From Formosa algae (lineage in GTDB: Bacteria > Bacteroidota > Bacteroidia > Flavobacteriales > Flavobacteriaceae), in assembly GCF_001439665.1 (NCBI RefSeq), contig NZ_LMAK01000017.1:1-64000 (forward strand): a DNA stretch of 64,000 bases. Direction: 5' to 3'. Position 1 is the stretch's first letter; every line of letters begins with the position of its first letter. Positions 36,944 through 47,370 of this stretch are shown piece after piece. Under the pieces are notes generated by a model. It made no database searches. It saw only the letters and a program-made list of their open reading frames with translations, and was not told the DNA's origin. The translations under genes were made by a program, and so were the position numbers.

Positions 36944-37747
36944 CTACTCTTTTAAAATATAATCGACTCCAGATTGGGAGTGAATTTTAGTGGTATCAAA
37001 AATGGGAACTTTTAAGTCGTCCTTAAAAATCATTAAAGGAAATTCTGTACAGCCTAAAATTACGCCTTCTGCACCATCATCTATCATCTCATTTAAAACA
37101 CTTAAGACATACTTTTTAGACTCAGGCTTAACTTCGCCATACGTTAATTCTTCAATAATAATTCGATGTAATTCATCTATTACTTTATCGTCTTCAGGCA
37201 CAAGAACATCTAAACCATTATCTTCAATTCTTTTTGTAATAAAATCTTCTGTCATGCTATATTTAGTTCCAATAAAGCATACTTTTTTTAAAGCCTTTTC
37301 ATGAATGGCTTTTGCTGTAACATCTGCAATATGAATGACAGGAAAATCCAATTGATCTTGTACTGAATTGTATACTTTATGGGGTGTGTTTGCACAAAAC
37401 ATAACCGACTGTGCTCCTGCCTTATTTAAACTTATAGCTGCAGTGGTTAACATATTTGCAATAGAATCCCATTTATCTTCTCTTTGAAAACGGTGGACCT
37501 CAGCTTGATTAAGCGTATAAACTAATAATGGTGGATTTGTATTATTACCAAAATGATCGTTTACCGCCTGATTGATTGTACTATAATAATCTAAGGTAGA
37601 ATGCCAAGACGTTCCGCCTATAAGTCCTAATGTATTCATTTTAGGTTGTTTTACTTCTAATTTTACTGGATCTGTAATAATGTGTTTTTTTGGAACGCTA
37701 TAAGACGTAAGTCCTATAAATAACAGTCCGTACATGTATTTTTTCAT
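36944..37747 (-). CDS. Aspartate/glutamate racemase family protein with N-terminal hydrophobic segment
   Basis: The core (from about residue 37) is a YgeA-like racemase: MNTLGLIGGTSWHSTLDYY, FCANTPHKVYNS with the first catalytic cysteine (about residue 120) and VILGCTEFPLMI with the second. The 267-residue frame begins with 36 extra residues including a hydrophobic run (about 5-17) resembling a signal peptide or membrane anchor, unusual for this family. An internal ATG at 37639 would give the standard cytosolic enzyme. It follows the sulfatase by 13 bases, so the two are one operon in the SusC/D locus. A racemase acting on an amino acid released from a substrate is possible but unproven. Confidence 0.82.
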   Translation of the reverse strand: MKKYMYGLLFIGLTSYSVPKKHIITDPVKLEVKQPKMNTLGLIGGTSWHSTLDYYSTINQAVNDHFGNNTNPPLLVYTLNQAEVHRFQREDKWDSIANMLTTAAISLNKAGAQSVMFCANTPHKVYNSVQDQLDFPVIHIADVTAKAIHEKALKKVCFIGTKYSMTEDFITKRIEDNGLDVLVPEDDKVIDELHRIIIEELTYGEVKPESKKYVLSVLNEMIDDGAEGVILGCTEFPLMIFKDDLKVPIFDTTKIHSQSGVDYILKE

Positions 37748-37760
37748 ACTTTATATTAGC

Positions 37761-39326
37761 TTACAAAGTGCTAAAACCTGCTTTTAACTCTTGAGATAAT
37801 TGCTGGATTAACGCTTTATGTTCTGTTTGATTTGCAATATTATAATTCTCCTGATCATCCTGTTCATGATCGAAAAGTTCTGTCCCAATTAAAGCCCCTT
37901 TTTCTTTTGTATCGGCATTCCACAAATACCACTCGACATAACGGTAACGATCTGTTCTCATGGTATACCCCATTCGCTCTTCTTCTCTGTCTTTAAGCGG
38001 ACCATATCTTCCTAGTAAAAACTGACTGTAAGCAGCGTTTTTCACTTTAGCATCTGGGTCTTTTAAAAGTGGCTTTAAACTTGTGCCTTGTAAATAGTCT
38101 GGCACATTAAAACCTGTAATATCGCAGAGTGTAGGATACACATCTACAAATTCTGTTAAAGCTTCACTCATTGTGCCTTTAGCAGCGACTTGATTTCCGC
38201 TAATAATTAAAGGCACTCTAGCATCTATTTCGTAATTGGTTTGTTTTCCCCAACCATTATGCTCGCCAAGCTTCCAACCATGATCTCCCCAAAGTACAAC
38301 AATGGTGTTATCTTTAAGCCCTAAACGGTCTAATTCGTCCATAATTCTACCTATTTGCGCATCTATATAGGAGACACAAGCATAATAAGCATGTTTAAGT
38401 TCTCTTTGTTTGTCTTCGTCCCAAGGTTCATCTATAGGATATGGTAAATTCTTTTTAGCATCTATATATCCTCTAAGTTCGGCATCTCCGTGAACAGCAT
38501 AATACGGGCTATCTTTGGGCTGAAATTGATTATCTGCTAATTTAATATCTTCTCTATTATACATGTCCCAATACTTTTTGGGAGCATTAAAAGGCAAATG
38601 TGGTTTATAAAAACCTACAGATAAAAAGAAAGGTTGATTTTTTGATTTTAATTCGCTTAATTTTTTGATTGCCATTGTGGTTTGAGCGCCATCATAATAA
38701 GCATCATCGTCTGCAAGTCCCATCTCACTAGATCGGGTTTTTGAATAGATAAAACCATATTTATCAAATTTAGCTCTACCGGCTTTTAAACGTTTTAACT
38801 CTAGCTCTTTTTGCTCTATAATATTATCTTGGTTTACGTAAACGGCATCTGGATCGAAAGGAAATCCGTCGACATGTAAATACTCATTCCAGGCCAAAGA
38901 ATCCTGTAATGTATTATGAAACGTTTTACCTAAACCTACACTGTAATATCCATTATTTTTAAAAAATTGAGGTAAAGAAACCAGGTCGGGCATTTGGTCT
39001 CTAAAGTGTGTTCTTAAATCCCAAACCTGAGTAGAGTCGGGTCTTAAACCCGTCAATAAACTTGTTCTAGAAGCTGTACATACCGCTTGTTGGCAGTAGG
39101 CACGATTAAAGACAACACCATTAGAGGCTAATTTGTCAATATTAGGAGATATTACGTCGCTATTACCATAACACCCCAACTCTGGTCTAAGATCATCTAT
39201 AGGGATAAATAAAATATTTGGCCTATTGATGTCTATATTTACTGCTTTAGTGTCTGCTTTTTTTTCGCATCCACTTAAAATCACAATAGCTATTAATGTA
39301 AAGTAGTTAAATATATTTTTTTGCAT
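37761..39326 (-). CDS. S1-family sulfatase, iduronate-2-sulfatase-like lipoprotein
   Basis: This 521-residue protein has a lipobox ending at Cys20 (IVILSGCEKK), so it is probably anchored in the outer or inner membrane. The sulfatase core has PIDDLRPELGCYG with the calcium aspartates, the signature QQAVCTASRTSLLTGLRPDS (about 77-96) whose cysteine is converted to formylglycine, and GDHGWKLGEHNGWGKQTNYE. The Cys-X-Ala-Ser-Arg form departs from the usual Cys-X-Pro-Ser-Arg. It resembles iduronate-2-sulfatases (S1_7). It probably removes sulfate from an algal or animal polysaccharide. Co-transcribed with the racemase-like gene. Confidence 0.88.
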   Translation of the reverse strand: MQKNIFNYFTLIAIVILSGCEKKADTKAVNIDINRPNILFIPIDDLRPELGCYGNSDVISPNIDKLASNGVVFNRAYCQQAVCTASRTSLLTGLRPDSTQVWDLRTHFRDQMPDLVSLPQFFKNNGYYSVGLGKTFHNTLQDSLAWNEYLHVDGFPFDPDAVYVNQDNIIEQKELELKRLKAGRAKFDKYGFIYSKTRSSEMGLADDDAYYDGAQTTMAIKKLSELKSKNQPFFLSVGFYKPHLPFNAPKKYWDMYNREDIKLADNQFQPKDSPYYAVHGDAELRGYIDAKKNLPYPIDEPWDEDKQRELKHAYYACVSYIDAQIGRIMDELDRLGLKDNTIVVLWGDHGWKLGEHNGWGKQTNYEIDARVPLIISGNQVAAKGTMSEALTEFVDVYPTLCDITGFNVPDYLQGTSLKPLLKDPDAKVKNAAYSQFLLGRYGPLKDREEERMGYTMRTDRYRYVEWYLWNADTKEKGALIGTELFDHEQDDQENYNIANQTEHKALIQQLSQELKAGFSTL

Positions 39327-39441
39327 AATTATTATTACATAAAATTTAATACTTGCTATTCGTGTTTATTTTCAATCTTATCTTATTACCAATAAGACTG
39401 TTTTTAAACTTTTATAGACATATTTATTTCATTAAATTATG

Positions 39442-39529
39442 GTCAGCTAGTAATTATAAAATCCAGTTTTATCTCATAAGTATTTAAAAGACATTGACTA
39501 ACTAAAAAAATAAAATATCACTAGCTGAC
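39442..39529 (-). repeat. Inverted repeat between susD and the sulfatase gene
   Basis: GTCAGCTAGT (39442-39451) and ACTAGCTGAC (39520-39529) form a perfect 10-bp pair with a 68-base loop in the 224-base gap. It could fold at the 3' end of the susCD message and limit read-through into the sulfatase gene, or be a binding site. No T-run follows, so it is not a clear terminator. Confidence 0.4.
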
Positions 39530-39550
39530 TATAAATTAGCGTTTCAAAAT

Positions 39551-40990
39551 TTATTTTTCGAACCACATAGGATCTTCTATAGTTACTTCCGTAGGTATGT
39601 TTATGTTAGCTGCAGCTTCATTGCTAGAATATGTATATCTTCTAATTACATCTGTTGCACCAGAAAGGTTTGGAATATCGAAATCTACCGACTTGGTTCT
39701 TTTCCATAAGTTCCACGCTTCTATACCATTACCAAATAAAGAGATATAATGCTGGTCGTTTATATAATCTAGTGCTTCATCTGTTGTTAGTGTAGATAAA
39801 TCTGGTAAGCTTGCTATATACGTATCTTTATCTGTTTGAGCAATCTCCCCCAAGGAACCATCATAATAATCTAAAGACAACGTAACACCTTCAATAAACC
39901 ATGTGTTAGCTTGAGCTAAACCTCCTGAAATGTATCCATTTGCAGCAGCATCTGCCAATAAAAAATAGGTTTCTGATGCTGTTGAGTACCTGTCGGGTGT
40001 ATCTGCTTGAACATTATCTACATTAATTTTTGAAATATATGCAACACCTGTATACCCTTGAATTATTCCTGCATACACACCATTGATATTCAGATCAAAA
40101 TAGGTTGCTCTACGAGGATCATCTAAATCGTTCATAAGGTCTACAAGTGGCTTTCCTGCATACCATAAATTAATGTTTCCACCCCAATAATTATTTATGA
40201 AAGTATATTTAGGATTTTCATTACCAATTTCAGAACTGTATTGTAATTTAGCTTCCTGTTCGTTAGTTAGAATTAACGCGCTGTTTGCTACTTCTTGAAG
40301 CCTATCAGAAACTTCTGTAGGTTTTATATTTGCCATAAACATGAGCATTTTTAACTTAATAGAGTTTGCCCAACGAATCCATGCTTCTTTATCGCCTTCA
40401 AAAATTAAATCATCAACAATATCAGAGTCTACATCTTGTTCTAAAATGGCAATAGCTTCATCCATTAAAGTTACAATTCCTTCCATTACCGTTTCTTGAG
40501 AATCAAACTCTGGATATGGATATTCTGCAGGATTTCCTGCTTGGGTAAATGGAACTTCTCCCCAGACTTGCGTGATGTTAGAATAAATAAACCCCTCTAA
40601 TATTTTTGCTTGAGCAGTAATATATACATCATCTGGGTAATCTGTTTCAACTAATAATTCTACTAAAGATAAATTTTTTAAACAGGTTGTATACCAATTT
40701 GTCCATGCATTATTTACTGAAGGAACTCCAAGTGTATATCTACTTCTGCTAAGCCAGGTACCGCCACTACCGGCCCATTGTTGCGCATGCATATTAGAAC
40801 CTGCAAATTCAATAACTCTTTGCGAAGACATATTTACAATTACCTCAGGAAATAAAAGATAAGGTGGTACTGATGTTACTGCTAATGGATCTTCATTAAT
40901 ATCTGTTATATCATCAGTACATCCGTTTAAGCTGAATGTAATTATCGATAATAAAAATAAATACTTTGCTTTTATGATTGTATTCTTCAT
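39551..40990 (-). CDS. SusD/RagB family nutrient-binding lipoprotein
   Basis: This 479-residue outer-membrane lipoprotein has a lipobox around Cys24 (FSLNGCTDD) and the SusD-like start DITDINEDPLAVTSVPPYLLFPEV. The rest is helical with TPR-like parts; AQQWAGSGGTW and EAWIRWANSIKLKMLMFMAN match the SusD-like_2 type (PF12771-like). It should form the lid over the SusC channel and bind the substrate outside the cell. Its start is 12 bases after the SusC stop, so susC-susD is a two-gene unit. The ligand is unknown. Confidence 0.92.
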   Translation of the reverse strand: MKNTIIKAKYLFLLSIITFSLNGCTDDITDINEDPLAVTSVPPYLLFPEVIVNMSSQRVIEFAGSNMHAQQWAGSGGTWLSRSRYTLGVPSVNNAWTNWYTTCLKNLSLVELLVETDYPDDVYITAQAKILEGFIYSNITQVWGEVPFTQAGNPAEYPYPEFDSQETVMEGIVTLMDEAIAILEQDVDSDIVDDLIFEGDKEAWIRWANSIKLKMLMFMANIKPTEVSDRLQEVANSALILTNEQEAKLQYSSEIGNENPKYTFINNYWGGNINLWYAGKPLVDLMNDLDDPRRATYFDLNINGVYAGIIQGYTGVAYISKINVDNVQADTPDRYSTASETYFLLADAAANGYISGGLAQANTWFIEGVTLSLDYYDGSLGEIAQTDKDTYIASLPDLSTLTTDEALDYINDQHYISLFGNGIEAWNLWKRTKSVDFDIPNLSGATDVIRRYTYSSNEAAANINIPTEVTIEDPMWFEK

Positions 40991-41001
40991 CTTTTTCTTA
41001 T

Positions 41002-44000
41002 TTAAAATTTAACGTTTACACCAAACCCAATACTACTTGTTGAAGGCAAACCATTATATTCTATACCTCCTCCATTACTACTTGAGCCAAACAAATTTGT
41101 TTCTGGATCAATATGAGGAATACTCGTATTAAAAAGAGCTAAATTTCTTCCTTGTAGACTAAATCTTAAAGCATTAAAAGGTATCTTTTCTAACTGTTTT
41201 TTATTCAATGAATAAGATAAAGCTATCTCTCTCCATTTTATATAAGTAGCATCAAACGTATTACTTTCATGAATCCTAGCGGCAGAATAGTTAGACCAAT
41301 AACTTTGAACGCTTGGTATTGGTGTTGTGTTTTCAGAGTAAGTACCATCTCCGTTATCAACAAAGGTATTTGGATCTACAAAAAGTGTTTCTCTATCTAC
41401 AGCCGTTTCTGCAGCCAAACCGCTGGTTCTTAAATTAGATACTGTTTGCGAATACAAAACACCGCCTTCTTTCCAATCAAAAGTTGTGGAGAGCCTCCAC
41501 CCTTTATAACTAAATACAGAAGTAAGCCCCATTGTGAAGTCTGGCATTATATCACCTAAGCGTTCTGTATTACCTTCATAACGTAAACCCGTACTACCTA
41601 CTAATATCTGATCTTCGATAGTATTACCATTTTCATCTACAGCTCTAGCAAATCGATTTCCATATAGACCAATACTTTCTCCTTGTCCGGCAGCTACTGT
41701 TAAACCATTATAGGTACTTGCCATAGTATATGTATCTAAATCCCCTAAATCTTCAATAATGGTTTCATTGGTTGTGAAATTGTAATTTAAGTCCCATTTA
41801 AACCCTTTAGCTCTAATTAATTTTATTCCTAATTGTAATTCAAAACCTGTGTTTGATATTTCTCCTAAATTAGTCCATGCTGAACTATATCCTGTTGAAG
41901 CGGGAGTAGATAATGCTATAATTTGATCAGTAGTACTCGTCTTATAATACGTTGCATCTAATGTTAATCTGTTTTTAAAAAACCCCAATTCAACACCTAT
42001 TTCTTTACTTAATTGATTTTCTGGTTTTAAAGTTGCATTTGGCAGTGAATTTGGACCAGAAAAAGCAAGCTGACCATCAAAAGGGAATGTTCCACTTGTA
42101 CTAAATTGTCCGTACCAACTTGATTGAGGATAATACAAATAATCTAATTGATATGCGCTTGTATCACCTCCTACATTTGCCCAATTCCCTCTTAATTTAC
42201 CATAACTTAAAATATTGCTGTCAATTTTAAAGGCATCAGTAAAAACAAAACTTAAAGCTACAGATGGATAGAAATAACTATTAGCACCTTCTGGTAATGT
42301 AGAAGACCAATCGTTTCTTGCGGTTGCATTTAAGCTAAGCCATTTTTTATAAGTCATTGTAAAATCTCCAAAAGCTCCAAAAATGCGTGTTTGAGAATAA
42401 TTGTTAAAAGGAACATTACTTTCTACATTACCTGGATCAAAAAGCTCAGGGATGGTAAGAGTTGTACCAATATTACCAATAACATCAGTGGTTTGTTGAT
42501 TCCATTGTACACCTCCTCTTAAAGTAACATCAAAATCTTCAAAAGAATTATCATAAGTTGCTAAATAATCTAGAGTTACTTCATTTCTACTAGTCGTAGA
42601 TTGTCTGTAATTACCATCAAGAAGCCCTATAGTTCCTTTGTGATTATTTCTAAAATATTTTGTATTGTAAGTATCATACCCCACTCTTCCTAACATAGAA
42701 AAATGATCTATAGGCTTATAAGTAAAAGCAACGTTCCCAAAAAATCTTTCGGTATCAGCTGTTCTTTGATTTTCATTAACAATCCAATACGGGTTATTGG
42801 TTCCATCAGCATCAACAGGAGCTAGCTGTGTTACACCATCGTCGGCTACCCATGGCTTAAAAACATCTAAATTAGTAACTCTTGGTAAAGTATTTATAAT
42901 ACTTGTTAATACATTAGGGTCATTTGCTCCTGTTGCCACTGCACCTTCTATAGCTGTATTAATATAATTTACGCTGAATTCAGAACTCAACTTATCGGAG
43001 AATTCAGAACCTGATTTAAGTCCTAAATTCAATCTATCAAGAGACGATCCTGGTAAAATTCCTTCTTTCGAACTATAAGAAGTACTAACTCTATAATTAT
43101 TTTTTCCTTCGTTTGAAGTTCCTGAAATTGAAAAACTATGTACCCTAGTTGAACCTAAATCATAAAAATCTTTTTGAAGATCTGGATTCGCTTCAAAGGT
43201 TTGTAAATTACCGGCATAATCTGTGTACGTTGTTCCGCTTGAAATTGCAGGTCCCCAACCTTTAGAAGCGTTTTGTATATTATCGCCATCAGCCTCATTA
43301 TAAACTCCTAGACTACCTGGGCCATAACTGTTTTGAAAATCTGGAAGTCGTAGAGGGTTATCAAAACGCATTGTTGAGCTATAAGTAATGGTTGCACCCT
43401 TTCCTTTTCCTTTTTTAGTAGTTACCACAATAACACCATTAGATGCTCTTGAACCATATAAAGCAGCAGCAGACGCTCCTTTAAGCACTGTTAGCGTTTC
43501 AATATCGTCTGGATTAATATCTTGGGCTCTGTTTCCGTAATTTGCTCCTCCTGATATATCACCGTCAGAACTATTACTATCAGATATAGGAACCCCATCT
43601 ATTACCCATAAGGGATTATTATCTCCAAATATACGAGTAAGCCCTCTTACTGTTATCTTTGTAGAAGTCCCCACTCCTCCACCTCCGCCGGTAATCTGAA
43701 CACCAGACAGTTTACCTTGTAATGCTTGAATAGGATCGGTTTCTCTTGCTTCTTCGAAGTCTTCGGCCTTTACTGTACTCACAGCATATCCTAATGTTTT
43801 TTCAGCACGTTCTATCCCCATGGCAGTCACCACAACCTCATTAAGGGCTTCTGCATCTTCATATAACGTAACGTCTATTTTTGTAGACATACCAATAGTT
43901 TTTTCTTGATCTCCCATACCTAAATAAGAATACACGAGAACTTGCCCTTGATTTGCCTTAATAGAATAATTACCATCAAAATCTGTTTGTACACCTGTCC

Positions 44001-44157
44001 GAGTACCTTTTATCATAACCGTTACTCCTGCAACAGGAATATTGGATTCGTCTATCACCTTACCCGTAATATGATTTTCTTGCGAATATATATACTGAAT
44101 ACATCCGAATTGAATCGTAATAAAGAAGATTAATAATTTGAAGATTTTTGTTTTCAT
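41002..44157 (-). CDS. SusC/RagA family TonB-dependent outer-membrane transporter
   Basis: This 1,051-residue transporter has a signal peptide (about 1-25, cut near IYSQ), a carboxypeptidase-like N-terminal domain (about 28-105, ITGKVIDESNIPVAGVTVMIKGT), a TonB box-like NEVVVTAMG (about 110), a plug domain (to about 240; LQGKLSGVQI, PLWVIDGVP and AALYGSRASNGVIVVTTKKG) and a 22-strand beta barrel to the end. It imports oligomers captured by SusD using TonB energy. A conserved regulatory region precedes it (44255-44353). Confidence 0.95.
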   Translation of the reverse strand: MKTKIFKLLIFFITIQFGCIQYIYSQENHITGKVIDESNIPVAGVTVMIKGTRTGVQTDFDGNYSIKANQGQVLVYSYLGMGDQEKTIGMSTKIDVTLYEDAEALNEVVVTAMGIERAEKTLGYAVSTVKAEDFEEARETDPIQALQGKLSGVQITGGGGGVGTSTKITVRGLTRIFGDNNPLWVIDGVPISDSNSSDGDISGGANYGNRAQDINPDDIETLTVLKGASAAALYGSRASNGVIVVTTKKGKGKGATITYSSTMRFDNPLRLPDFQNSYGPGSLGVYNEADGDNIQNASKGWGPAISSGTTYTDYAGNLQTFEANPDLQKDFYDLGSTRVHSFSISGTSNEGKNNYRVSTSYSSKEGILPGSSLDRLNLGLKSGSEFSDKLSSEFSVNYINTAIEGAVATGANDPNVLTSIINTLPRVTNLDVFKPWVADDGVTQLAPVDADGTNNPYWIVNENQRTADTERFFGNVAFTYKPIDHFSMLGRVGYDTYNTKYFRNNHKGTIGLLDGNYRQSTTSRNEVTLDYLATYDNSFEDFDVTLRGGVQWNQQTTDVIGNIGTTLTIPELFDPGNVESNVPFNNYSQTRIFGAFGDFTMTYKKWLSLNATARNDWSSTLPEGANSYFYPSVALSFVFTDAFKIDSNILSYGKLRGNWANVGGDTSAYQLDYLYYPQSSWYGQFSTSGTFPFDGQLAFSGPNSLPNATLKPENQLSKEIGVELGFFKNRLTLDATYYKTSTTDQIIALSTPASTGYSSAWTNLGEISNTGFELQLGIKLIRAKGFKWDLNYNFTTNETIIEDLGDLDTYTMASTYNGLTVAAGQGESIGLYGNRFARAVDENGNTIEDQILVGSTGLRYEGNTERLGDIMPDFTMGLTSVFSYKGWRLSTTFDWKEGGVLYSQTVSNLRTSGLAAETAVDRETLFVDPNTFVDNGDGTYSENTTPIPSVQSYWSNYSAARIHESNTFDATYIKWREIALSYSLNKKQLEKIPFNALRFSLQGRNLALFNTSIPHIDPETNLFGSSSNGGGIEYNGLPSTSSIGFGVNVKF

Positions 44158-44480
44158 ACACAGTTGTTTTTATTATAAAATCACCTTAAATATGATCACA
44201 TTAGAATTTAACTTTTCGTTAAACAACATTATGAGAATATTAACAGATGAAGTATAAAACAACTAAAAAACCTTTAAACACGGGGGTTTTAAAGGTGTAC
44301 ACTTATACTACACTAAGACTTGCAGCAAAATTTTTGTGAGAAATAAAATAAAAGGGCAGTAAATTGTTAAATTATTTATTTTATGCAGACAATCTATAAA
44401 AATTGACACCTTATAAAATCAATACATATGTTAAAAGCGTATGAAATATTAAAAGGCAAAGACAAATTAAGACCGTTATA
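44158..44480 (-). other. Intergenic region upstream of susC
   Basis: No gene is supported in these 323 bases between susC and the regulator gene. The conserved three-block element lies at 44255-44353, with a 9-bp inverted repeat (ACCTTTAAA/TTTAAAGGT, 44270-44296) between its first two blocks. A near -7 box (minus strand TAATGTTG, 44223-44230) lies between the element and the susC start. No clear terminator for the regulator gene was seen. Confidence 0.5.
44255..44353 (-). promoter_or_regulatory. Conserved three-block regulatory region before susC (copy A)
   Basis: Three blocks on the plus strand, TAAAACAACTAAAAA (44255-44269), GTGTACACTTATACTACA (44295-44312) and a 22-base block beginning TTTTGTGAGAAAT (44332-44353), recur upstream of the secreted hydrolase gene at 47049-47147. 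Spacers of 25 and 19 bases are identical while their sequences differ. Genes downstream are on the minus strand. The pattern suggests a shared multi-site operator and promoter. Its protein is unknown, but the TPR-HTH regulator between them is the natural candidate. Confidence 0.75.
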
Positions 44481-45914
44481 TTATATACTTTTTATCCAAG
44501 TATAAATATTTTCGTCTTCTGGTATATTAAGTTTTTTACGCAACCTGTATTTTTTGGTTTGCACTGTTCTTGGCTGAATATTTGTGAAGCATGCAATATC
44601 TTTTGATGAAAAATTAAGCCAAATCATAGCGCATAAAGTTAATTCTGTATTCACCAATTTAGGATTTACCTTTAATAAGTTTGCACAAACGTGGGGATAA
44701 ACTTCTTGAAAACGGATAAGAAAAGACGGATCGTTAGTTTTAGCCAACCCGACAACTTCTTCAAAGGCTTCATTTAATTGCTGTTTTAATTTTTCGCTTT
44801 CAAGCTGTTTTTGCTTTAATAATCTTTCTTTTTCTTCAACAATTCTAAGTCGTTTTTTTCTGTAGTAATACACAATTACAAGTACTGAACCCACAAATAA
44901 GAATACCACAGTAACAATAAGCACACTATATTTTTTTTCTTGCTGCTTATAGCCACTTTCTTGCTCGGTTAAGAAGTTACTAATTACACTCCCAATATTT
45001 TTATTATAACGTAGGTTTAAGCTATCTGTTAAAACACTATATTTTAGTAAATATTCATGAGATCGATCTTCATCTTCTAATTGAGAGTAGGTTTCTGAAA
45101 TTAATTTATAAGCCAACTGAACATTATCTAAAACTCTAACACTTCTAGAAATCTCTATAGACTTTTCATACAGACATATTGCCTCTTCGTAGTTTCCGAT
45201 GGCTTTATTATAATTGGCTTCGGCTTGCAATACTATAGATTTATGATATTCTGAAATATTACGCACTTGCATTAACCTTTTACTCTTATTTAAGTAGGCT
45301 CTTGCAGAATCTATATTTTTATCTTTCTTTAAATAATAATTTGCAACAACCGCGTACTTAAACGGGTTTTTCCTGATTTTAATAGCCTTGTGAAGATAAA
45401 CTAATGTTGAATCTAATTTATAAGGCGTATTTGTAAAGGCATCTGCTTTATTGATGTATAGAAAAGACAATAAGTAATCGTAATCGGGAAGTAATTTTTT
45501 ACAGAGATTAATACTCTCATTATAATACTCTATAGATTTATTATTGATTTTTAAAGCAGCATAATTTCTTGCATAGTTAGCCAAAACCCTAACTTTTAAA
45601 TCAAGATTTTCATTTTCATCTATTAAGTTATCTGCTAAATCTAAATACCGTAAACTTTCTAAATGTTCACCAAATGTGCATAAAATATTTGCGATACGTA
45701 TATACGTAACTGAGACAGTATAGACATCGTTATTTTTTTTGGCACTTTCTACAATATCAATATTTAAAAGTAGAGCTTCTTCAAAAAGTCCTTTTTTAAT
45801 TAAAGAGTTTTCTTCTTTTATCCAATCTTGATAATTTGTTTTTTGCTCTTGCAAATTCCCGTAAGTAGAGGAAACAACCAAAAAAAATAATATAGTAATA
45901 TATAGGCCTCTCAT
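44481..45914 (-). CDS. TPR-containing membrane regulator with LuxR-like HTH
   Basis: This 477-residue protein has a signal peptide (about 1-19), periplasmic TPR repeats (about 30-310; e.g. ESLRYLDLADNLI, NKSIEYYNESINLC, NYEEAICLYEKSIEI), one membrane helix (about 327-348, VLIVTVVFLFVGSVLVIVYYY), a coiled coil (about 350-385) and a cytosolic LuxR-type HTH at the C-terminus (LTLCAMIWLNFSSKDIACFT, then RTVQTKKYRLRKKLNI). Such proteins sense a periplasmic signal and activate nearby nutrient genes in Bacteroidota. It lies between the hydrolase and susC genes, both preceded by the same three-block element, so it is the likely regulator. Direct binding is inferred. Confidence 0.85.
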   Translation of the reverse strand: MRGLYITILFFLVVSSTYGNLQEQKTNYQDWIKEENSLIKKGLFEEALLLNIDIVESAKKNNDVYTVSVTYIRIANILCTFGEHLESLRYLDLADNLIDENENLDLKVRVLANYARNYAALKINNKSIEYYNESINLCKKLLPDYDYLLSFLYINKADAFTNTPYKLDSTLVYLHKAIKIRKNPFKYAVVANYYLKKDKNIDSARAYLNKSKRLMQVRNISEYHKSIVLQAEANYNKAIGNYEEAICLYEKSIEISRSVRVLDNVQLAYKLISETYSQLEDEDRSHEYLLKYSVLTDSLNLRYNKNIGSVISNFLTEQESGYKQQEKKYSVLIVTVVFLFVGSVLVIVYYYRKKRLRIVEEKERLLKQKQLESEKLKQQLNEAFEEVVGLAKTNDPSFLIRFQEVYPHVCANLLKVNPKLVNTELTLCAMIWLNFSSKDIACFTNIQPRTVQTKKYRLRKKLNIPEDENIYTWIKSI

Positions 45915-45935
45915 TTATACAATAACTCCAATCAT

Positions 45936-45990
45936 TAAAAAAAAGTATGATACAGAGTAAAAATACTTACTTTGCAACATACTTTTTTAT
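45936..45990 (-). terminator. Possible terminator after the hydrolase gene
   Basis: On the minus strand AAAAAAGTATG and CATACTTTTTT (arms 45978-45988 and 45939-45949) can form an 11-bp stem with a 28-base loop, followed by T residues. It lies between the hydrolase stop and the regulator start, so it may partly or fully separate the two genes. Confidence 0.45.
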
Positions 45991-46044
45991 ACAAAAAAAT
46001 AATTATTTAGTCTTTTTATGAGATTACTCTATAAATTACACCTT

Positions 46045-46935
46045 TTAATTTCCTTTTCCCAATAATTCTATCCACTGGTCCGCATAACCAATGTTTCTAA
46101 CCCCATTTGAATGTCCTTTTTTGCCTTCTGGAACAGGAAGACTAAACGGATAAATATGATCTTCTGGAATCTGCATAGCTTTATAAGATGCGTCTATAAC
46201 TTTAGCCATTGGCTCGGTTACATGATAGGTTCCATACCATAAATTAGAAGGAGTCACACTTTCGTTAGAATACCATCCTGCGATTTTCTTTTTGGCAGAA
46301 TAATCCCATCCACCAGAAAAATCTATTACTCTAGCCACAAGATGTTCTTTTGCTATAAAAGCAGCCATTCCACCACCTTGAGATTGTCCTGAAACTGCAA
46401 TTTCGCTCCATTTTAGCTTACCGTTTTCTAAATACTTTTCCCAATGTCCGTTCTTATCTTCTTCTGAAAGATAGATTAGTAATTTCGTTAATCTGTTTAC
46501 TATAGCATCGTGAGCTTGATCTTCTATAAGTGGAAAATCGTTAGTACCATAAATACGCATCGTCCTAAAATCACTGGTGCATTTAGAATTTTTCTCTAAA
46601 TTTTTGCCTTTACAAATTTGAGCTACTGCTGGTGTGTTTATATAAGACAGGTTAATAACTTGATAACCTTGATGCACTGCGACAGAAAACAAGCTCTTAG
46701 GTCCTCTAGTTGCTATGCCGTTTGTACCTGGTAAAAACAACAAAAGCTTTCCTTGCTCTGCAGCTTGATTATAAACAACTAAATGAGGAGTATTAGCCTC
46801 TTTAATTCTAGAGTCCGTTTTAGCCGGTTCTATATTTAAAACAGTATATCCATTAGGAAATTGATATTCTGACTGAGCGAAATTTTGATTGTGAAAGCAC
46901 ACAATAAGCATTAATAAAAGAAGCTTTTTTACCAT
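46045..46935 (-). CDS. Secreted alpha/beta hydrolase (BPSS1187-like)
   Basis: This 296-residue protein has a signal peptide (about 1-21, cut near NFAQ). The alpha/beta-hydrolase core has LLLFLPGTNG (oxyanion strand) and the nucleophile elbow SGQSQGGGM (serine about residue 186). A histidine in EGKKGHSNG near the C-terminus is a likely third member of the triad. I recall the BPSS1187 family as looking like this, but the substrate is unknown; an esterase acting on acyl groups of the polymer handled by this locus is possible. Preceded by the three-block element at 47049-47147. Confidence 0.78.
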   Translation of the reverse strand: MVKKLLLLMLIVCFHNQNFAQSEYQFPNGYTVLNIEPAKTDSRIKEANTPHLVVYNQAAEQGKLLLFLPGTNGIATRGPKSLFSVAVHQGYQVINLSYINTPAVAQICKGKNLEKNSKCTSDFRTMRIYGTNDFPLIEDQAHDAIVNRLTKLLIYLSEEDKNGHWEKYLENGKLKWSEIAVSGQSQGGGMAAFIAKEHLVARVIDFSGGWDYSAKKKIAGWYSNESVTPSNLWYGTYHVTEPMAKVIDASYKAMQIPEDHIYPFSLPVPEGKKGHSNGVRNIGYADQWIELLGKGN

Positions 46936-47370
46936 AATATGTTTACTTGATTTTTAAAAAATAAATTTGAAAAACAGGAATCTAAATCTTTAAAAATAGC
47001 TAGCAGGCAAAACCAATGTTTAATCTGCTTGTATCTTTTTATTCCTGTTAAAACAACTAAAAATTAATTAAAACTAGACATTTTTAACGTGCACACTTAT
47101 ACTACAGCCTATGTAAACGCATGACTTTTATGAGAAATGAAATAAAACGACATTAAAATCCGTTTATCCCTATTTTTTACAGAATATTTTAAGCAACATA
47201 ATAACAGTTAAAATTAGCAATATCTCTAATACAACAGTTAAATTGTAATTAAAAACGGGTTATTATAAACGTTACACAAATAATAAGCATCTAATATTCG
47301 CAAAAAGCTTAACTCCAAACCGCCATAATTCGTATATAGTTATGGTCATTTAAAAGTCATCATTAAATTT
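46936..47370 (-). other. Intergenic region upstream of the secreted hydrolase gene
   Basis: No gene is supported in these 435 bases. The second copy of the three-block element lies at 47049-47147, ending about 113 bases before the hydrolase ATG. Beyond it the sequence is AT-rich, with AACAGTTAAA repeated near 47204 and 47232 and a short hairpin CCATAA/TTATGG near 47322-47346 that has no T-run. The remaining sequence shows nothing else I can name. Confidence 0.5.
47049..47147 (-). promoter_or_regulatory. Conserved three-block regulatory region before the hydrolase gene (copy B)
   Basis: Blocks TAAAACAACTAAAAA (47049-47063), GTGCACACTTATACTACA (47089-47106) and a 22-base block beginning TTTTATGAGAAAT (47126-47147) repeat those before susC. 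They match at 15/15, 17/18 and 20/22 bases, with spacers again of exactly 25 and 19 bases. Spacer sequences are not conserved, which is typical of protein-binding sites held at fixed geometry rather than of a recent duplication. Confidence 0.75.

Follow-up and report, generated by a model that had tools for sequence, protein, structure and literature searches.

The window (the whole stretch of Formosa algae DNA that was analysed, 64,000 nucleotides) holds, from 36944 to 46935 on the minus strand, a conserved cassette of genes for a BPSS1187-family hydrolase, a regulator, SusC/SusD, a sulfatase, and an Asp/Glu racemase. A second sulfatase has been added to the cassette in other genomes. Two copies of a three-block element, both also on the minus strand, lie before the hydrolase gene and before susC, as listed here in 5' to 3' order on that strand.

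47126..47147, minus strand: block 1 of the hydrolase promoter (TTTTATTTCATTTCTCATAAAA), from sequence
47089..47106, minus strand: block 2 of the hydrolase promoter, the predicted operator, TGTAGTATAAG/TGTGCAC with half-sites 11 bp apart, from sequence comparison
47049-47063, minus strand: block 3 of the hydrolase promoter, from sequence
47049..47056, minus strand: predicted -7 box of the hydrolase promoter (TTGTTTTA, TAnnTTTG type), inside block 3
46045..46935, minus strand: secreted BPSS1187-family alpha/beta hydrolase, the first target gene
45938..45988, minus strand: U-tailed, terminator-like hairpin between the hydrolase and regulator genes (-18.8 kcal/mol, z -5.7)
44481..45914, minus strand: regulator with TPR, transmembrane helix, coiled coil, and NarL/LuxR-type HTH, a predicted activator
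44332..44353, minus strand: block 1 of the susC promoter, from sequence
44295..44312, minus strand: block 2 of the susC promoter, the predicted operator, TGTAGTATAAG/TGTACAC, from sequence comparison
44255-44269, minus strand: block 3 of the susC promoter, from sequence
44255..44262, minus strand: predicted -7 box of the susC promoter (TTGTTTTA), inside block 3
41002..44157, minus strand: SusC/RagA TonB-linked outer membrane protein
39551..40990, minus strand: SusD-like_2 lipoprotein
37761..39326, minus strand: sulfatase, a conserved neighbor downstream of susCD
36944..37747, minus strand: Asp/Glu racemase family protein, a conserved neighbor

From 5' to 3', the element consists of block 1 (20 of 22 bases identical between the copies), a 19-base spacer, block 2 (17/18), a 25-base spacer, and block 3 (15/15). 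These identities and spacer lengths, reported in an initial annotation of the DNA, were matched exactly on recheck, and its observation that the spacing is constant while the spacer sequences of the two copies are unrelated was borne out. In the window, block 2 had two matches with ≤3 mismatches (0.07 expected) and block 1 had two matches (0.04 expected); block 3 alone was weak, with 6 matches at ≤2 mismatches versus 2.6 expected. Copies of block 2 without a mismatch occur exactly twice in the whole 4.29-Mb genome, and the second half-site of the hydrolase copy is degenerate (TGTGCAC). The predicted transcription starts are near 47044 for the hydrolase promoter and near 44250 for the susC promoter. 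The hairpin at 45938-45988 on the minus strand is probably a partial terminator and could limit read-through into the regulator gene.

Eighteen sites from 11 genomes (the founding set) were aligned without gaps from -70 to +110. The conserved columns were AA at -20/-19, the operator at 1 to 18, TTTT at 44 to 47, and TT at 55 and 56, and column conservation downstream of the operator was above that of all 2000 permutations. Block 2, the best-conserved part of the alignment, is composed of two half-sites 11 bp apart (TGTAGTA-n4-TGTAnnn), with TGTA at operator positions 1 and 12. Block 1 was kept in the genus only, with the exception of the A-tract at its 3' end, and possibly has an A-tract/UP-like role. 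Positions -20, 1, 12, 44, and 55 are separated by nearly whole helical turns, and this constant spacing lends support, at the level of sequence, to the proposal in the initial annotation that the element is read from one face of the DNA at fixed helical phase. A palindromic reading of GTGTACAC was rejected because the palindrome is lost in other genera, which have TGTAACC, TGTAGACC, or TGTATCCC there.

The -7 box of flavobacterial sigma-A promoters, TAnnTTTG, is located at -12 to -5 (PMC9723704). A degenerate version of this box, YWnnTTTR, started at position 50 or 51 in 14 of the 18 founding sites, compared with a mean of 0.8 at other offsets, and the window's own copies have the box in this degenerate form only. 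A weak -7 box starting at operator position 51 would put the operator near -62 to -45. A scan with the sigma-70 consensus gave a promoter-like count equal to that of shuffled sequence, and a terminator consensus scan found none. Since YWnnTTTR was derived from the founding sites themselves, the box was retested on independent loci.

To obtain independent loci, 386 genomes of the order were searched with the HTH domain of the regulator. About 150 relatives turned up; they are spread over 40 genomes, most of which belong to one other family, and a single genome has as many as ten. In the test set from this second family, 40 loci holding 49 regulators, the tandem repeat TGTNRTA-n4-TGTNRTA (≤1 mismatch in 12 defined positions) was present 47 times, compared with 11.6 in shuffled sequence. 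A -7 box, called at ≥5 of 6 matches to TAnnTTTG, was located at offset 51 in 25 of the repeats and at offset 52 in 10 (35 of 47), versus an average of 1.1 per offset. These offsets indicate that block 3 carries the -7 box and that block 2 is the operator, with the operator centered, by this sequence comparison, ∼53 bases before the predicted start. Thus, the suggestion that the three blocks are three sites for one protein did not hold: block 2 is the operator, block 3 holds the -7 box, and block 1, its A-tract apart, is conserved in the genus only. The operator variants TGTGATA and TGTCATA kept the layout in the second family. The T-tract at 44 to 47 was discarded as a general feature, because the second family has its T-run at 24 to 29, near the -33 position. 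Ten of the 36 second-family promoters precede the regulator itself, and the rest mostly precede genes for secreted or small HTH-like proteins. About half of the second-family loci had no clear site with the TGTNRTA half-site; some of the loci without such sites have other 11-bp repeats (TGATGTA, ATACGTA, ATAGGTA) with a box at 51. Searches for the operator plus the box returned only the known loci and one more place in the F. algae genome and five relatives and, in six second-family genomes, one place each, all near a listed regulator.

The protein encoded between the two copies of the element starts with a signal-peptide-like stretch, followed by TPR repeats, a single likely membrane helix, a long helix, and, at the C terminus, an HTH domain of about residues 380 to 477. 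Pfam detected only TPR_12 and GerE, with the GerE match (E 3.7e-4) below the curated Pfam cut-off; no histidine kinase, receiver, or AraC-type domain was detected with Pfam, and no ATPase domain was found in the protein. In NCBIfam, the HTH matched only the BT3442 family, and weakly. The computed AlphaFold2 model of the HTH domain had a pLDDT of 94.6, and the structural matches listed for it were NarL/LuxR-type HTH proteins (Z 6.0 to 7.6 over ∼60 residues), which points to a GerE-type HTH fold for the C terminus. The HTH domains of the founding regulators were 68 to 91% identical to that of the window, their sensor parts were variable, and recognizable TPRs were missing from two of them. The Galbibacter and Sinomicrobium regulators (L052:3761-4612 and L053:3584-4453) are ∼285 amino acids long with no recognizable TPR domain, and have kept the HTH and the sites.

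In the 397 genomes searched in the family, GTGTAGTAYAARTGTANACC matched nine places when 1 mismatch was allowed; seven of these adjoin a regulator gene (6 genomes), and the other two are inside one coding sequence of one fragmented genome. With the exception of one coding-sequence match, operator sites in the family scan were confined to regulator-bearing genomes. Close relatives of the hydrolase are present in 7 other genomes. G014, G119, G173, and G348 preserve the gene order hydrolase, TPR-HTH, susC, susD, sulfatase, with block 2 before susC in all four and also before the hydrolase gene in the congener G014. The genomes with the SusD orthologue are precisely the five that have the whole cassette. 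There is no hydrolase-side copy of the operator in Tamlana, Aureibaculum, or Flavivirga. The case of a related genome with the same operon but no element, which the initial annotation had named against its own reading, did not arise: related genomes with the operon keep the element before susC, and its hydrolase copy is missing in some. No operator site was present at the hydrolase loci of G335, G229, and G370, which have neither the regulator nor SusC/SusD, or in the congener G245, which does not have the cassette.

More relatives of the regulator were found in Formosa, Algibacter, Flavivirga, Galbibacter, and Sinomicrobium, at loci with one or two sites each that flank the regulator gene or its neighbor. 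One of the seven regulator-side matches to GTGTAGTAYAARTGTANACC, in G222, adjoins a diverged TPR-HTH gene, next to genes for a META-domain-like lipoprotein and another secreted protein, with no SusC. In G257, which was outside the motif-building set, TGTAGTATCTATGTAATACC is directly after the regulator gene. The site is also present at regulators without SusC/SusD (L051, L052, L053, and L043). Because the site is kept with the regulator where SusC/SusD is absent and is lost from hydrolase-only loci, it follows the regulator gene and not the operon, which supports the proposal that the TPR-HTH protein is the likely reader.

The shared operator/promoter layout suggests that the hydrolase gene and susC belong to one regulon, as proposed initially. 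Both proposed members, hydrolase and SusC/SusD, were retained, and the regulon as first drawn was incomplete: prediction adds at least one gene, which encodes a secreted LamG-domain protein. At the site before this gene (C6:79977 in the F. algae genome, C1:2027671 in G014), the same operator recurs, the spacer is again 25 bases long, with a sequence that has diverged from one species to the other, and the box TTAATTTG is at 50; the encoded secreted protein combines a Laminin_G_3 domain with a type IX secretion tail. Elsewhere in the genome, the full architecture was found only at this third site, and the blocks were not scattered genome-wide at unrelated genes, the case that the initial annotation had named against its own reading. 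Other copies of block 2 with 2 or 3 mismatches in the F. algae genome (C4, C21, C56, C82, and C6:132072) were rejected, being in coding sequence or without the architecture, and no such promoter was found at the loci of five other HTH paralogues in this genome.

A genus-conserved 11-bp repeat, TGTAGT-n5-TGTAGT, is present at L084:4347 and L085:4073 (C7:40346 in the F. algae genome and C1:3253072 in G014, where the second half is TGTAAT). The repeat at C7:40346 is closely followed by the ATG of a small secreted-protein-like gene; the repeat was rejected as a further target since there is no -7 box at 51.

The reading that we favor, with a probability of about 0.83, is that the element works as an activator-dependent promoter and that its activator is the membrane-anchored TPR-HTH protein whose gene lies between the hydrolase gene and susC. 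A pair of NarL/LuxR-type HTH domains would sit head to tail on a single face of the DNA, each contacting one half-site of block 2, and would recruit RNA polymerase to the weak TAnnTTTG-type -7 box at the end of block 3; the promoter has no conserved -33 box, and we infer activation rather than repression. The periplasmic TPR domain would presumably sense a substrate-derived signal, upon which the regulator may turn on the susCD-sulfatase-racemase genes and the distant gene for the secreted LamG protein. The hydrolase promoter would serve the hydrolase gene and, by read-through past the hairpin at 45938-45988, the regulator gene itself, likely a positive feedback. In the second family, the regulator gene often has such a site directly ahead of it.

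It has to be considered whether block 2 could itself be the core promoter of a special or the main sigma factor, with TAYAWRTG as the -7 box and the later blocks in the leader RNA. Block 2 is the best-conserved block, and TAYAWRTG at its positions 6 to 13 does resemble TAnnTTTG, slightly more than block 3 does in the founding set (means of 4.5 versus 4.1 of 6). However, its positions 10 and 11 are W and R rather than the consensus TT, and it is not typical of a core promoter to have 18 conserved bases and an 11-bp direct repeat or to be restricted to regulator loci. The second family has a better -7 box at 51 or 52, downstream of operator variants that keep the layout, and a core promoter in block 2 therefore seems unlikely.

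Nor does control at the RNA level, in which the spacer and T-run would form a leader terminator or attenuator switched by RNA structure, agree with most of the sites. Two Tamlana genomes have a perfect hairpin with T6 (z about -4), and the susC copy of the window has a stem (z about -2.5), but the remaining 15 sites have no unusual hairpin (z -0.9 to +1.0). A leader hairpin was rejected as a conserved feature, unusual hairpins being present in only 3 of the 18 sites. There was no Rfam match in the region, and the spacing is conserved while the spacer sequence and its pairing are not, which makes RNA-level control extremely unlikely. The Tamlana hairpin, a perfect GC-rich one with T6 that lies within the 25-base spacer at L047:5627-5643 and at the same place in L048, may be a terminator that was added there. 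The element might instead be the operator of another regulator, such as a global one, with the TPR-HTH gene a bystander in a conserved cassette. This is very unlikely, because the site stays with the regulator across two families while all other genes change, is absent from genomes without the regulator, and has half-sites that change together with the HTH from one paralogue to the next.

Base 5 of the half-site agreed with the residues of the recognition helix in all 38 regulators with assigned sites: where the helix has Lys-Lys-Tyr/His, the base is mostly G (22 of 22 regulators), and where it has Arg-Lys-Asn in the corresponding place, the base is mostly A (16 of 16). In the tree of regulators, this match rests on one or two independent changes and is thus a strong lead, not proof, that a few recognition-helix residues dictate the letters of the half-site.

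Membrane regulators that combine a sensor with an HTH are common in Bacteroidota. To our knowledge, operators are known for few of them, and the membrane TPR/HTH family is largely unstudied. MalT of Escherichia coli, an activator that binds direct repeats head to tail, shares with the proposed regulator a helical-repeat sensor, a LuxR-type HTH, and direct repeats. However, MalT is a cytoplasmic STAND-class ATPase, whereas in the window regulator no ATPase domain was found and a membrane helix is predicted. NarL/FixJ-type response regulators, whose usual sites are inverted repeats, share the fold of the DNA-binding domain (LiaR, DosR, VraR, and RcsB; Z up to 7.6 among the matches listed) but differ in that no receiver domain was found in the window regulator, and sequence identity is ∼20%. 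SusR-like regulators of Bacteroides are likewise specific to Bacteroidota, control SusC/SusD loci, and have their HTH close to the carboxy end, and the sections of the source that deal with them predict direct-repeat operators on one helix face with a nonconserved spacer (Ravcheev et al. 2013, PMC3878776). Compared by description, the centers of their repeats lie 67 or 77 bp from each other, versus 11 bp between half-sites here, and those sections (PMC3878776) do not describe SusR as a TPR protein, as the window regulator is. The hybrid two-component systems (HTCS) of Bacteroides, as described in the same sections, also join a membrane sensor to a DNA-binding domain and have direct-repeat operators, on average 21 bp apart, but they have AraC-type, kinase, and receiver domains, none of which was found here, and the repeat here is 11 bp (PMC3878776). 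Repeat length, HTH type, and locking to the promoter all differ from these SusR-like and HTCS predictions, as far as the source describes them (PMC3878776). The operator architecture appears to be undescribed in the open papers searched.

On balance, we lean toward a modular code in this Flavobacteriales TPR/LuxR-HTH family: tandem 7-bp half-sites at an 11-bp pitch, locked ∼33 bp upstream of the -7 box, with letters set by a few recognition-helix residues and up to ten paralogues per genome, each of which would control its own neighboring surface-protein or uptake genes. As the layout recurs beside dozens of related flavobacterial regulators, it amounts to a predicted, testable DNA code for the family. 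With a predicted operator, promoter position, and specificity code, targets could be read from sequence and single-base tests could be designed. The comparison also shows how one such regulator came, depending on the lineage, to a sulfatase SusC/SusD locus or to a place next to unrelated secreted proteins.

The second-family loci L125-L164 have up to ten TPR-HTH paralogues per genome, several of them as tandem pairs, which adjoin secreted proteins starting with an SQVGINTxTP-like stretch. Their half-sites vary by paralogue (TGTAGTA, TGTAATA, TGTCATA, TGTGATA, TGATGTA, ATACGTA, and ATAGGTA).
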